From positions 1-64,000 of the forward strand of contig NZ_JAFHKK010000009.1 of the NCBI RefSeq assembly GCF_016937535.1: a stretch of 64,000 nucleotides of DNA, in the 5' to 3' direction. Every line of letters starts with the position of its first letter. Position 1 is the first letter of the stretch. The notes beneath the pieces are model-generated. The model saw only the letters and a list, made by a program, of their open reading frames with translations. It did no database searches and had not been told where the DNA came from. Source of the DNA: Sulfurospirillum tamanense. GTDB lineage: Bacteria > Campylobacterota > Campylobacteria > Campylobacterales > Campylobacteraceae. A program made the position numbers and the translations under genes. This document shows positions 2,310 through 49,992 of this stretch, piece after piece.

Positions 2310-3355
2310 TAAAACACCTCACCATACTCATCATTGGCCTTTTTGTACTCTTCTATCCGCCCGATGTCCAGCCAATACTCTCTAAGCGGAAACGAGATAG
2401 CATTTTTATTGTCACTTATAATCTTGTCAAAAAGCGTAGGCATGTCGTAAAATTTATTTTGCGGGATAAGTTCAAGCACTTCGGGTGAGAGCATGTATAT
2501 CCCAGCACTTACAAAAAACTTATGGGTGGGTTTTTCTTCTATTGAGAGTATTTTGCTGTTCTTTACATGCACAACCCCATAAGGTACTTGAAAGTCGTAT
2601 TCTCGCACACACATGGTTCCCGTGGCATTGTTTGCCAGATGGTAGTCGTGTAGGTGCTCAAAGTTTACGTTAGTCAGCAGATCTCCATTCATGACAAAAA
2701 ACGGTTCTGTTGGCTTTACATGTAAGAGACTCAACGCTCCTGCTGTGCCCATTCTTTGCTCTTCAAAAACATACTCTATGCTAACACCAAACTCGCCACC
2801 ATCTCCAAAATACTCTTGTATCACGTGTGATTTGTAGTTCACACACATCACGATGTTAGCATAGCCATACTCTGCAAATTTTTCTATGATGGTCTGGAGA
2901 ATCGGCTTGTTGCCCACTTTGAGCATGGGTTTTGGGGTGTTGTCTGTGAGCGGTCGCAAGCGCGTGCCAAGTCCTCCTACCATTAGTACAACTTTATTTG
3001 TTTTTTGCCTTGGCTTGATGAGTTCTTCTATTTCCTGAATACCAACTATCTTGCCATTTTCATCTACGATGGGTATCTGATGCAGTTTTTTGGCAAGTGC
3101 TATCTTCAAAATCTCTTCTTTGGTGTCGCTAATGGTGGCGATGGTCGGGGTCGTAAAGGTGATGCTCTCAATAGAACTATCCAGAGTAAGCCCTTTGAGC
3201 AGCCCCCGCCTTATATCTCCATCGGTCAAAGTGCCTATTAGCCTATCGTCATCGTCCACGATCAAGGCGATTTGCATAGCTGCTTTGTCTATAATCTCTA
3301 AAGCTTCTTTTATGGTTGCGTTTTTATTGATCTTTATATTGTCTATGTTTTTCAT
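2309..3355 (-). CDS. ptmE: CBS-domain sugar nucleotidyltransferase, PtmE-like
   Basis: A 348-residue two-part protein. Residues 1-115 form a pair of CBS domains (IVDDDDRLIGTLTDGDIRR, and IPIVDENGKIVGI). From about 124 a nucleotidyltransferase domain follows with VVLMVGGLGTRLRPLTDNTPKPML, a variant of the pyrophosphorylase signature, and NGDLLTNVNF for the metal aspartate. In Campylobacter jejuni PtmE is the glucosamine-1-phosphate guanylyltransferase that supplies GDP-linked sugar for legionaminic acid synthesis. The same domain order and the location in a leg operon support that role here. The gene overlaps the deacetylase gene by 4 bases. Confidence 0.8.
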   Translation of the reverse strand: MKNIDNIKINKNATIKEALEIIDKAAMQIALIVDDDDRLIGTLTDGDIRRGLLKGLTLDSSIESITFTTPTIATISDTKEEILKIALAKKLHQIPIVDENGKIVGIQEIEELIKPRQKTNKVVLMVGGLGTRLRPLTDNTPKPMLKVGNKPILQTIIEKFAEYGYANIVMCVNYKSHVIQEYFGDGGEFGVSIEYVFEEQRMGTAGALSLLHVKPTEPFFVMNGDLLTNVNFEHLHDYHLANNATGTMCVREYDFQVPYGVVHVKNSKILSIEEKPTHKFFVSAGIYMLSPEVLELIPQNKFYDMPTLFDKIISDNKNAISFPLREYWLDIGRIEEYKKANDEYGEVF

Positions 3356-4011
3356 TTCACCTCTTTCAAAAGAACAAAACTCTCAGCATATTCGCATCCA
3401 CATGTGGCGCCCCTAAAAGTTGCCAGCGCTCTTATGTTTCGTTCACTTCTTGGAAAGGGATGTTCGGCTATTTCGCTTTTAAAAACTTTCATAATCTCTA
3501 TCTTTTTTTCAAAAAAATCACTTATATCTACAAATACATTTGGCACGAAACCCTCTTCTTTAATGCTTGGCGCAAATTCTGTTTCGCTCAAAGTTTCCAT
3601 CATATAAATTTTTTTGATAAAAGGATAACGGAATGATTTTGTACAGCTATAACTCACTTCAAATATTTTTCTATGATCACTATGAACATCACCTTTAAAA
3701 GGAAGATAGATAGTATTTGGTTGCACCTCATTGATTACTTTAGAAATAGCACCAATAAGCTCACTCATAGAATATTCGTCAACTTGCATTGTTTTTAGAC
3801 GTAGATTATGCACACTATCAAAGCCATACATGGCACCGACAAAGCTTAGTTCTTTTTCTCTTTGTGTATAGTAATTGTGGTCTTTGCTTAGCGTCGTACA
3901 AATAAGCCAATGAATTTCATCCCCGCTTGCTTTATGTTTTAGCAAGGTTCCTCCGCATCCCAAAGTTTCATCATCTGGGTGAACAGCAACTATTAAGACT
4001 TTGTTATTCAT
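3352..4011 (-). CDS. PIG-L/LmbE family deacetylase
   Basis: A 219-residue member of the PIG-L family, zinc enzymes that remove N-acetyl groups from sugars. The signature AVHPDDETLGCGG is at residues 9-21 (His and two Asp as zinc and catalytic residues) and the second histidine motif HSDH is near residue 112. It overlaps the formyltransferase gene upstream by 4 bases and ptmE downstream by 4. The pair deacetylase plus formyltransferase inside a legionaminic acid operon suggests replacement of an N-acetyl group by N-formyl on a sugar intermediate or product. The substrate is inferred. Confidence 0.82.
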   Translation of the reverse strand: MNNKVLIVAVHPDDETLGCGGTLLKHKASGDEIHWLICTTLSKDHNYYTQREKELSFVGAMYGFDSVHNLRLKTMQVDEYSMSELIGAISKVINEVQPNTIYLPFKGDVHSDHRKIFEVSYSCTKSFRYPFIKKIYMMETLSETEFAPSIKEEGFVPNVFVDISDFFEKKIEIMKVFKSEIAEHPFPRSERNIRALATFRGATCGCEYAESFVLLKEVK

Positions 4012-46750: not shown

Positions 46751-47002
46751 CTACAAGTCGCTGAGGTTTACTTTGCGTGGCATAAATACCTCATCCCTTC
46801 TCTCTCCCACTTCTTTCAGAAGAAGATAATCATCAAGCATTTCCATCATTTTTTCATAAGTTTTAGAAGGCACCAAGTAGGCACTTGCCACGTTGTGGTT
46901 CAAAATCGCCACGACTTCATCACCCGCCTGCTCTAAAACTTGCGTGGGAGATTTTTTGAGTTCTGTGATGCTTGCGGTAAAACGAGACAAAATAGGTTGC
47001 AT
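46751..47002 (-). CDS. Phd/YefM-type antitoxin without a visible toxin
   Basis: From the ATG at 47002 the protein has 83 residues. MQPILSRFTASITELKKSPT starts the Phd/YefM fold, and VVAILNHNVASAYLVPSKTY is the strand-helix block of StbD/RelB-type members. A helical tail (MMEMLDDYLLLKE) should bind a toxin. No toxin frame follows in the 88 bases before the hemJ start, and none precedes it. An upstream extension to 47053 lacks family support. It may be an orphan left after loss of the toxin, or it may act on a toxin elsewhere. Confidence 0.75.
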   Translation of the reverse strand: MQPILSRFTASITELKKSPTQVLEQAGDEVVAILNHNVASAYLVPSKTYEKMMEMLDDYLLLKEVGERRDEVFMPRKVNLSDL

Positions 47003-47110
47003 TTTAAATACCTTTTTTAGTGCTCGCCCCAAAGATGGTTTTATTGCTGGCAAAGACGCATATAGAATATTTTCATAATTATCTAGTTGTGCTAATTGGC
47101 AAAAAATGAA

Positions 47111-47650
47111 CTATAAACAATTCAAGACTTGCTTTGTCTTTTTCTGAAACTGTTTCGTAAAAAACGCGACATTGTTGGTAAAAACTTCCTTTACAATATT
47201 TTGCTCTTTATATTGTTTTAAATCAAATTGTATAGCACCTTTTGCCACGCCACATTTATATCTATCCCTAGGTTCAACACAGTCTTTGTAACATACGCAG
47301 TAAATAAAATTGTAATTGTTTTTTTGTATATTTAAAGTACTCAAGAGTCCATCTAATTCTCTTTTGCCTTCTTCTAATTTTTCTTTAATTTCAGTATTGC
47401 CTATATCGGATGGTTTTTGATTCTTAAATTCAATGCAATAAATGTCACTGTCCTTGACATAAAGCGCATCAAAGGATTTTGGTCGCATGTTCGAATTAGG
47501 GTATTTTTCCTCAATAATCCTATCATAATCAATAACTTCTTGACGCTCGTCAGCACACAAAGAAATACTATGAGCATCATCAAAGCTCGTTTTCCTAAAA
47601 GTGCTCTGAAATGAAGAGTAACTTCGAATAAATACGCTAATATCAGCCAT
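47111..47650 (-). CDS. Putative PD-(D/E)xK-like nuclease, partner of the adjacent ATPase
   Basis: From the ATG at 47650 the protein has 179 residues. The block SFDALYVKDSDIYCIEFKNQ (about 54-73) has the Asp, then Glu-x-Lys order on neighbouring strands, as in PD-(D/E)xK nucleases. No other domain is recognised. It overlaps the ATPase gene by 8 bases and is visibly more AT-rich than the genes outside the pair. ATPase plus small nuclease is a common plan for phage-defence modules; that function is inferred. Extension upstream to 47791 runs inside the ATPase gene and is unlikely. Confidence 0.5.
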   Translation of the reverse strand: MADISVFIRSYSSFQSTFRKTSFDDAHSISLCADERQEVIDYDRIIEEKYPNSNMRPKSFDALYVKDSDIYCIEFKNQKPSDIGNTEIKEKLEEGKRELDGLLSTLNIQKNNYNFIYCVCYKDCVEPRDRYKCGVAKGAIQFDLKQYKEQNIVKEVFTNNVAFFTKQFQKKTKQVLNCL

Positions 47651-48674
47651 GTAACAAATTCTCACTATCCATTTCATCAAATGTATCAAAAGGTTCAGAA
47701 AGTTTTTTAAAAATCTCAGAGAGTGTTTGACTATTGCTTTCATCAACCTGTTTAATTTTCCCATCTTGGGCAATATAAAAATTTGAATCAATTTTTTCTA
47801 ATTCGCCGTATCTTTGTAGGGCCTCTACCATATAAGGACTGTGAGAATTGACCAAAACTTTTACTTTATTTTTTACCAAGCCAACAATGACTCTAGCCAT
47901 AGCGAGTTGCCATTTTGGGTGCAAGTGAACTTCTGGCTCATCCAAGATAAGGCACACTTTTGGATTCAGAAAACGATTTTCATTTAGCAACTGCAATAGG
48001 CCAAAAGATTTAATACCAAAAGCTGTATTAGCCATTTCCATTTTTAGGGCTTTAGCGACAAAGTATTTATAAAAAAAGAACTTCCCGCCTTCTAATTTAA
48101 ATTCTCCGCCTATAGTTTTTTGAATTTCTTCTTGGATTTTTCTTTGTTTTTTAACTCTGGGATAGGGGTTTGGTTTGGAAATTTTATCAAATAAATCCCA
48201 TATCACATAAGGATAAGTTATATCAAAATCAAGCGCATAATCAAATTTTTGCCTTTCTTTCATTTTCCCAATGCTATTAAAAAAATCGACCATATCAAAA
48301 ACGATAGGAGATTGAACAATCGTTGCATCAAAAAAACGCTTTCCTTCATTCTTTCCTCTTCTAAATTCTTTTACAAAATTTTTATCGACAATATGAGCAT
48401 AGGCTACCTCTTTTTGATGGTCGTCCACTAAGGAAATTGTTCCATCAAGGGAAACATTACCATCAAAAACCAAATTAAGCCTTGTTGCAAGTATCTCTTT
48501 TTCTTTTTGTTGTAGGTTTTTATTACGTGCAATGTTGTCGGATTTGACAAGGCAAAACAAAGCCTTACCCAATGTACTTTTCCCTGTATCATTTTCACCC
48601 GCTATAACAGTAAGTCCGTTTATTTTAACACTTGCTTCTTCTACTAGTCCAATATTTCTAAGCTGAAGTTTCAT
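47643..48674 (-). CDS. OLD/ABC-like AAA ATPase, putative defence component
   Basis: From the ATG at 48674 (preceded by AAAAAGG) it has 343 residues. It begins MKLQLRNIGLVEEASVKING, followed by Walker A VIAGENDTGKSTLGKALF (about 23-40). Walker B and the following His are in VCLILDEPEVHLHPKWQLAM near 250-269, and KVLVNSHSPYMVEAL near 285 is the typical H-loop region. This is the AAA_15/AAA_21 type found in OLD, retron-associated and other defence ATPases. No TOPRIM domain is fused. It ends in overlap with the nuclease-like gene. Confidence 0.78.
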   Translation of the reverse strand: MKLQLRNIGLVEEASVKINGLTVIAGENDTGKSTLGKALFCLVKSDNIARNKNLQQKEKEILATRLNLVFDGNVSLDGTISLVDDHQKEVAYAHIVDKNFVKEFRRGKNEGKRFFDATIVQSPIVFDMVDFFNSIGKMKERQKFDYALDFDITYPYVIWDLFDKISKPNPYPRVKKQRKIQEEIQKTIGGEFKLEGGKFFFYKYFVAKALKMEMANTAFGIKSFGLLQLLNENRFLNPKVCLILDEPEVHLHPKWQLAMARVIVGLVKNKVKVLVNSHSPYMVEALQRYGELEKIDSNFYIAQDGKIKQVDESNSQTLSEIFKKLSEPFDTFDEMDSENLLHG

Positions 48675-48705: not shown

Positions 48706-49992
48706 TCATAACACATTTGTCGACTTCACATTCTCTTCCCTAAGTGCGCTAGCGATGAGTTCGATGGGGTTTTTGAAGACCACGTCGGACTTGGCATGGT
48801 AAAGAGCGTCGCCTAGTTGCATGCGACACGCACTGCATTCTGCGCTTACGACCTTGGCGCCTGTGGCGTTTATCATGGTGGCTTTGGGCTCGCCTGCGGC
48901 TTTGGCGAAGCGGTAGTTTTCTAACTGCATGGTCACGCCGCCAAATCCACAGCAACGGTTGGGGTCGCTCATCTCGCGCATCACGAAGTTTTGGGCGATG
49001 AGCGCGCGGGGTTCTTTCCAAACCCCTTGCATTTTGCGGGCGTGGCAAGGGTCATGGTAGGTTACCACCTCGGAGCGTTTGGCTTTGCGCGCAAGCAGGT
49101 CTTTGAGGTTTGTTTTTTTCTCCAAATAATCCGTCGCCATGTAAATCATCGGGCGGATGGCCTCGGCTCTGGCTTTCCACTCGGGCTGGTCGTGGAAAAA
49201 GTGCACGTAGTCTTCTTTGATCATGGCGCTACAGGTGGCTTCGGGGATGATGATGGCCTCTAGCGTCTCTTTGAAACTCTCGATGTATTCGATGTTAAAC
49301 TTCCCAAGGGCGTCCACACTGGCAAAATCCCCCGTAAAATACGAAGGTGCCCCACAGCATTTTTGCTGCTTGATGAGGTACACATCAATCTCCAACGCCT
49401 TCAATATCTCTAGTAGTGCCTTGCCGATGTCCGTGTACATGTAGTTGGCCAAACAGCCGATAAACACGCCTACTTTGCCCTTACCACCGTTGATGATGAC
49501 TTCAGGATGAGAGTTTAAAAAGCTTTTTTTCGCCAAACTTGGAAGCAAACGGTCGAGTTTCACGATGGGGAAGTCGCGCAAACTCATGGAGCGTTTTTCG
49601 GGGTGGAGTTTGAACCCGCACGTTTGAAACACATACCCAAACCTCGCCAAGATGTCCATGATACCCCGATTGCGCAAGAGGAAAAACGCCAAGCGTTTGT
49701 ACCACGCAATGCCGTATTTTTGGGCGATGTCGTAGCGGGCTTGCTCGATGACCATGTCCACTTTGAGGCTATTGGGACACACATCCACGCAGTTGGTGCA
49801 CAAAAAACAGCTCTCAAAAATCTTCTTGGCCGTGCGGTCAAGCTCTAGTTTTCCTTTTTGATACGCGCCCAAAAGATGCAAAAACCCTCTAGGACTGGTG
49901 GTTTCGTCGGGGTTGACTTGGTGGATGGTACACACAGGGATACACTTGCCGCATTTCACGCACGCATCTGAGGTGACATTAAAAGCAAACAT
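48706..49992 (-). CDS. (Fe-S)-binding oxidoreductase subunit, GlcF/GlpC-like
   Basis: A 428-residue protein with two [4Fe-4S] ferredoxin motifs at the N-terminus (CVKCGKCIPVC at about 11-21 and CFLCTNCVDVCP near 62) and two CCG domains: QQKCCGAPSYF near 210 and NRCCGFGGVTM near 348. These are found in the Fe-S subunits of glycolate, glycerol-3-phosphate and lactate oxidising enzymes and in heterodisulfide reductase-like proteins. No flavoprotein partner is adjacent. It starts 2 bases after the hemN stop, so it may be co-expressed with hemN. The electron donor is unknown. Confidence 0.8.
   Translation of the reverse strand: MFAFNVTSDACVKCGKCIPVCTIHQVNPDETTSPRGFLHLLGAYQKGKLELDRTAKKIFESCFLCTNCVDVCPNSLKVDMVIEQARYDIAQKYGIAWYKRLAFFLLRNRGIMDILARFGYVFQTCGFKLHPEKRSMSLRDFPIVKLDRLLPSLAKKSFLNSHPEVIINGGKGKVGVFIGCLANYMYTDIGKALLEILKALEIDVYLIKQQKCCGAPSYFTGDFASVDALGKFNIEYIESFKETLEAIIIPEATCSAMIKEDYVHFFHDQPEWKARAEAIRPMIYMATDYLEKKTNLKDLLARKAKRSEVVTYHDPCHARKMQGVWKEPRALIAQNFVMREMSDPNRCCGFGGVTMQLENYRFAKAAGEPKATMINATGAKVVSAECSACRMQLGDALYHAKSDVVFKNPIELIASALREENVKSTNVL

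Follow-up and report, generated by a model that had tools for sequence, protein, structure and literature searches.

The gene pair described here is of a kind already known from WonAB, from the OLD-ABC ATPase and REase operons, from PD-T4-4 and from HEC-02. WonAB, the closest tested system, is encoded by the WASA-1 prophage of V. cholerae and combines an OLD-ABC ATPase with a PD-(D/E)xK protein. Experiments in V. cholerae established that phage defence requires ATPase residues as well as the nuclease lysine, that overproduced WonB is toxic only when WonA is present, and that activation stops translation and arrests growth with no loss of genomic DNA; simple sequestration of the nuclease was excluded experimentally (PMC12137116). 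Operons of the class 'OLD-ABC ATPase + novel REase' had been delineated earlier in silico (Krishnan et al. 2020, cited with WonAB in PMC12137116). PD-T4-4 is a two-gene system of E. coli whose partner class is listed as PD-(D/E)xK (PMC10952713), and HEC-02 (hma-embedded candidate 02 in PADLOC) is an untested candidate.

The window, i.e. the whole stretch of 64,000 nucleotides that was analyzed, carries a pair of this kind on its minus strand. We consider it likely that these two genes form a defence system against phages (or mobile elements) that acts by abortive infection, with a PD-(D/E)xK nuclease under the control of an ABC-type ATPase. What is new is the conserved family to which the nuclease belongs, the sites that this family occupies, and the exchange of sensor and effector within it.

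The ATPase and its nuclease-like partner

The pair and its immediate surroundings comprise the following features:

47643..48674, minus strand: gene of the ABC/OLD-type ATPase (343 aa), the proposed sensor/regulator of the pair
47111..47650, minus strand: gene of the PD-(D/E)xK nuclease-like partner (179 aa), so assigned from the family alignment, the AlphaFold2 model and the family matches of its relatives
47643..47650, minus strand: 8-nt overlap of the two genes, the same in nearly all relatives
48576..48599, minus strand: Walker A motif of the ATPase (GENDTGKS, residues 26–33), with no change up to residue 32 among 23 relatives and S33 near-invariant
47916..47954, minus strand: Walker B motif and D-loop (LILDEPEVHLHP), near-invariant
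47832..47849, minus strand: H-loop (NSHSPY), with N276, H278, S279, P280 and Y281 invariant and S277 near-invariant
47423..47470, minus strand: putative catalytic motif of the partner (D61 ... E74-F-K76), invariant in 23 sequences
46751..47053, minus strand: orphan Phd/YefM-type antitoxin gene (Pfam PhdYeFM_antitox, 9.6e-10), outside the system; a ParE toxin gene lies at the same site in the sister species
48706..49992, minus strand: 4Fe-4S/CCG redox gene, outside the system, forming the conserved edge of a variable site (the sister species G798 has 91% DNA identity as far as the gene's end and other cargo beyond)

The layout is that given in a preliminary description of the locus: both reading frames are present and overlap by 8 nt, the pair is AT-rich (31–35% GC vs 45–55% in the neighbours), and its flanks are heme and redox housekeeping genes, with hemJ on one side and the 4Fe-4S/CCG protein and hemN on the other. 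The adjoining antitoxin gene, described as an orphan, indeed has no toxin gene beside it in the window. The same description had pointed to the lack of the palindrome TTACATGTAA in the pair. None of the 22 copies in the 64-kb window (0.08 expected; sites include 2716, 8628, 46134 and 63285) lies inside the pair, but this carries no weight: at a density of about one per 2.9 kb, their lack in 1.56 kb is unremarkable, and we rejected it as a sign of foreign origin since chance suffices. In the sister species (L105), the palindrome is likewise found next to the variable site. Flanking repeats, considered as traces of insertion at the pair, proved to be just weak AT-rich matches.

The ATPase belongs to the ABC class (OLD/PtuA-type), as judged from its Walker A, Walker B and H-loop motifs and from its fold. 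Two Pfam models, AAA_15 (3e-17) and AAA_21 (4e-12), match it above cut-off, and its best PADLOC matches are PD-T4-4_A (7e-32, over the C-terminal half), HEC-02A (8e-31, over nearly the full length), PDC-M47A and NsnB. A Foldseek search of the PDB with the AlphaFold2 model (pLDDT 87) placed PtuA (Septu, retrons) at the top, with Rad50, SMC heads, GajA and OLD close behind, down to an E value of 1e-9.

The 179-aa partner alone gave no significant match in direct searches of Pfam, PADLOC, NCBIfam, PHROGs and the PDB. The nuclease-like motif noticed earlier (FDALYV...CIEFKNQ) is nevertheless real and conserved: the alignment of the partner family (23 sequences) shows no variation at D61, E74, F75 and K76 and almost none at N77 and Q78. 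Eight of these 23 sequences match NERD (best 3e-4), and other models matched by relatives are PDDEXK_9, SduA_C (7e-4), Cas4 (Cas4_II, 2e-3) and REase. The AlphaFold2 model, a check that the preliminary description had proposed, is confident (pLDDT 90). It retrieved no solved structure at E<0.001 with Foldseek, and the weak matches include many PD-(D/E)xK proteins (cap-snatching endonucleases, Nt.BspD6I, a Hjc-type resolvase and Can2). From the invariant residues, the matches of the relatives and these weak structural matches, we take the partner to have a PD-(D/E)xK fold; that it acts as a nuclease is a prediction. In the family, Cys32 is also invariant and the C-terminal Cys178 near-invariant. 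The idea that the C-terminal cysteine is a fossil of an overlapping glyQ start (ATGCTAAC) was rejected because copies far from glyQ retain it.

A Rad50/SMC/OLD-like head, together with nuclease motifs related to those of NERD, Cas4 and Shedu, could also be read as belonging to a DNA-degrading system directed against plasmids or transformation (Wadjet/OLD-like) rather than to abortive phage defence. We regard this as unlikely, however: the ATPase has neither the long coiled coil of SMC proteins nor a Toprim part, and WonAB arrests growth while genomic DNA is kept (PMC12137116).

Relation to described systems and distribution

The pair resembles WonAB in being a two-gene operon for an OLD-type ABC ATPase and a small PD-(D/E)xK protein, with agreement in gene order and motifs, in the position of the catalytic lysine (71 in WonB as published, K76 in the window's nuclease), and in having variable inserts and an ATPase C-terminal extension proposed as a nuclease dock. 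The two differ in the spacing between the Walker A lysine and the Walker B glutamate (266 in WonA from published positions vs about 214 residues in the window's ATPase) and in the size given for the partner (16.1 kDa for WonB vs 179 aa); the likeness to WonB and to the operons of Krishnan et al. is drawn from their published descriptions.

HEC-02 and PD-T4-4, both of which match on the ATPase side as given above, were rejected as the exact identity of the pair on account of their partners. HEC-02B is a PD-(D/E)xK-like protein of about 171 positions, and an intermediate (L034) matches both HEC-02B and the window family; yet the HEC-02B model matched neither the window's nuclease nor any of its 22 relatives, and a comparison of the two profiles was weak (probability 24%, E 8.5e-4). 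In addition, the HEC-02 pairs of Pseudomonadota overlap by 4 nt, vs 8 nt in the window family. The PD-T4-4_B model gave no match to the window's nuclease at E<=1, and its matches in other genomes display a different motif (...FVLIELKS...). Because the partner models do not match, the pair cannot be filed under either system. Septu (PtuAB) shares the fold of the ATPase, 8eea being the best match in the PDB, and in the sister species the chromosomal site of the pair is taken by PDC-M62, but both have an HNH nuclease as partner instead of a PD-(D/E)xK protein.

The preliminary description had called the pair undescribed and its partner different from those of Gabija, PARIS and Septu. The second statement holds, since the partner matched none of the models of the GajB helicase, the AriB Toprim protein and the PtuB HNH nuclease. 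The first was too broad: the kind has been published (WonAB, the in-silico class, PD-T4-4 and, as a candidate, HEC-02); the nuclease itself has no direct match among the families of PADLOC, Pfam and NCBIfam.

Matches to the window's nuclease were found in 17 of 397 Campylobacterota genomes, and further relatives in Beggiatoaceae and Thiomargarita; the evidence is comparative throughout and many of the genomes are drafts. Campylobacterota and Beggiatoaceae share the pair as a conserved unit. Wherever a locus was long enough to be assessed, the ATPase gene lies directly upstream of the nuclease gene, in most cases with the same overlap of 8 nt, and every intact nuclease of the family was accompanied by its ATPase. 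Against a defence role, most relatives occur on their own among housekeeping genes, not in large defence islands. A tblastn search of plasmids and phages with the nuclease returned no match; the more distant pair L034 lies on a viral contig, next to a serine recombinase in what is presumably an integrative element. The wider class of ABC ATPases paired with PD-(D/E)xK proteins is large, with HEC-02-type and other pairs in Pseudomonadota.

Occupied and empty sites

In the sister species G798, the sequence diverges from that of the window beyond the end of the CCG gene, and the same site (L105:4864-7666) holds a ParE-type toxin gene (Pfam 8e-10) with a small upstream ORF, then an ATPase and HNH pair matching the PADLOC candidate PDC-M62A/B at 1e-113 and 4e-62. 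As different candidate defence cargo occupies one site, the window's site resembles a defence hotspot.

In Sulfurovaceae, most relatives lie at the purE–glyQ junction and are co-oriented with both genes, the stop codon of the nuclease gene overlapping or touching the glyQ start. Within this one bacterial family, 82 junctions were informative: an ATPase related to that of the window is present at 31, a short gap at 48 and other content at three, absence from the junction being compatible with copies elsewhere in the genome. Mapped on a GlyQ tree, this distribution takes a minimum of 14 gains or losses (bootstraps give 13–15, well-supported branches force at least five, and shuffled labels give 25).

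A cassette that is co-oriented with purE and glyQ and ends on the glyQ start might serve its neighbours in housekeeping or under stress, for instance by tuning glyQ translation or nucleotide metabolism, and its setting is at first sight the non-defence context that the preliminary description had said would speak against its reading. We find this role very improbable. The cassette is absent from the junction in 51 of the 82 genomes and has been gained or lost repeatedly, as stated above; its nuclease is replaced by unrelated types; and the neighbours are others at the window, in Sulfurospirillum, at nif-adjacent loci and in Beggiatoaceae. The purE–glyQ context argues for defence, not metabolism, because it is an occupied-or-empty hotspot with effector swapping.

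The cargo of the 31 occupied junctions, tallied by hand, is as follows:

17 of 31: the window's nuclease type (type 1), intact
2 of 31: the window's type, broken (a frameshift in L140, in-frame loss of the core in L104)
3 of 31: type 2 nuclease (VDSLLIN…FVEFKD)
3 of 31: type 3 nuclease (PDMIYI…WFIEFKSS)
4 of 31: type 4 partner (CDKVIEC…LVEEKS)
1 of 31: a ricin-like gene in the place of the nuclease
1 of 31: a fused remnant

The window's nuclease has remote relatives in types 2 and 3. The type 4 partner (L084, L113, L115 and L116) has no detectable relation to it and belongs to no recognisable Pfam or PADLOC family, and none of types 2–4 has a PADLOC name. The ATPases that accompany type 4 have a different N-terminus (MAKELAHFKNF). 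Two purE–glyQ junctions (L093:2391-2801; L127, oriented locus, about 3107-3508) bear a ricin-type beta-trefoil gene, which in one case follows a type-3 ATPase in the nuclease's place and in the other occurs with no ATPase.

A second in-frame deletion of the nuclease core, beside an intact ATPase gene, was found in another genome (L018), and L119 retains an in-frame fusion remnant of both genes with the glyQ junction kept. The deletions in L104 and L018 and the L119 fusion suggest selection to maintain translation into the next gene. L008, considered as a broken ATPase, was rejected as such, being a single open frame with a longer insert.

Loss of the nuclease core with retention of the ATPase at least twice (L104 and L018), with no intact nuclease lacking its ATPase, is also what a toxin–antitoxin or selfish addiction module would produce, in which the ATPase restrains a nuclease toxin, the cassette persists because cells that lose it are killed, and defence is incidental; the overlapping 'antitoxin'-like gene upstream and the toxin–antitoxin genes at the same site point the same way. 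However, the ATPase contains a hypervariable segment that is independent of the nuclease (see below) and for which a simple antitoxin would have no need, in most close relatives the site is unoccupied, and simple sequestration was excluded in the case of WonAB (PMC12137116). We therefore think an addiction module rather unlikely, and retain a defence role as the probable function of the pair, a role which, like the ATPase class and the PD-(D/E)xK reading, had been put forward in the preliminary description and is supported by family models, alignment, structures and site variability.

Modules of the ATPase and a proposed mechanism

Two parts of the ATPase bear on how the pair may work:

48321..48554, minus strand: hypervariable segment from the Walker A helix to the Q-loop (residues 41–118), the proposed sensor, with 12% mean pairwise identity vs 76% in the N-lobe and 68% in the C-core
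47646..47774, minus strand: C-terminal tail (residues 301–343), the proposed nuclease-coupling segment, whose similarity tracks that of the nuclease and which has type-specific motifs

Along the protein, mean pairwise identity thus runs from 76% (residues 1–40) through 12% (41–118), 31% (119–215) and 68% (216–300) to 44% (301–343). In the type-1 set (21 pairs), similarity in segment 41–118 does not follow that of the nuclease (Mantel rho 0.04, p 0.35), a measure of independence that is limited by an alignment near noise in this segment. Concordant and discordant pairs are for that reason better evidence than rho. Indeed, nucleases that are 80% identical accompany sensors that are 18% identical (L006 and L007), and the window and L092 have nucleases 64% alike and sensors 14% alike. 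Outside its own clade, the window's sensor is closest to those of L139 (48%), L111 (45%) and L148 (39%), and despite these window-like sensors L139 carries a type 3 nuclease and L148 a type 2 nuclease. By contrast with segment 41–118, the tail co-varies with the nuclease in the same set (Mantel rho 0.78, p 0.0002), and there is one tail motif per nuclease type (SEPFDxFEEMDS…NG, SLENFKW, LKKLKMxKYxND and LLDPLEEIxWEY).

On the basis of this module pattern and of the published experiments on WonAB (PMC12137116), we propose the following mechanism. In the ATPase, whose nucleotide-binding core is conserved, the hypervariable middle would recognise some sign of infection, the head would pass the signal on and the C-terminal tail would hold the nuclease. 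Through the binding or hydrolysis of ATP, the ATPase would then license the nuclease, which would cut nucleic acid (RNA or DNA) and, by analogy with WonAB, abort the infection. We are evenly divided over a broader proposal, namely that the pairs form a modular cassette family in which the hypervariable sensor segment and the nuclease are exchanged independently by recombination at a fixed site in the essential purE–glyQ operon, without an integrase, the partner-specific tail serving as a coupling plug and the window copy being a displaced member.

Pairs of an ABC ATPase and a nuclease are widespread, and this family bears on what they sense and on how the nuclease is switched on. It offers natural chimeras, i.e. 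one nuclease with different sensors, one sensor type with different nucleases, and nuclease-dead copies, so that swapping experiments could directly locate the parts responsible for sensing and coupling. For further small defence cassettes, the purE–glyQ junction is a compact place to search.
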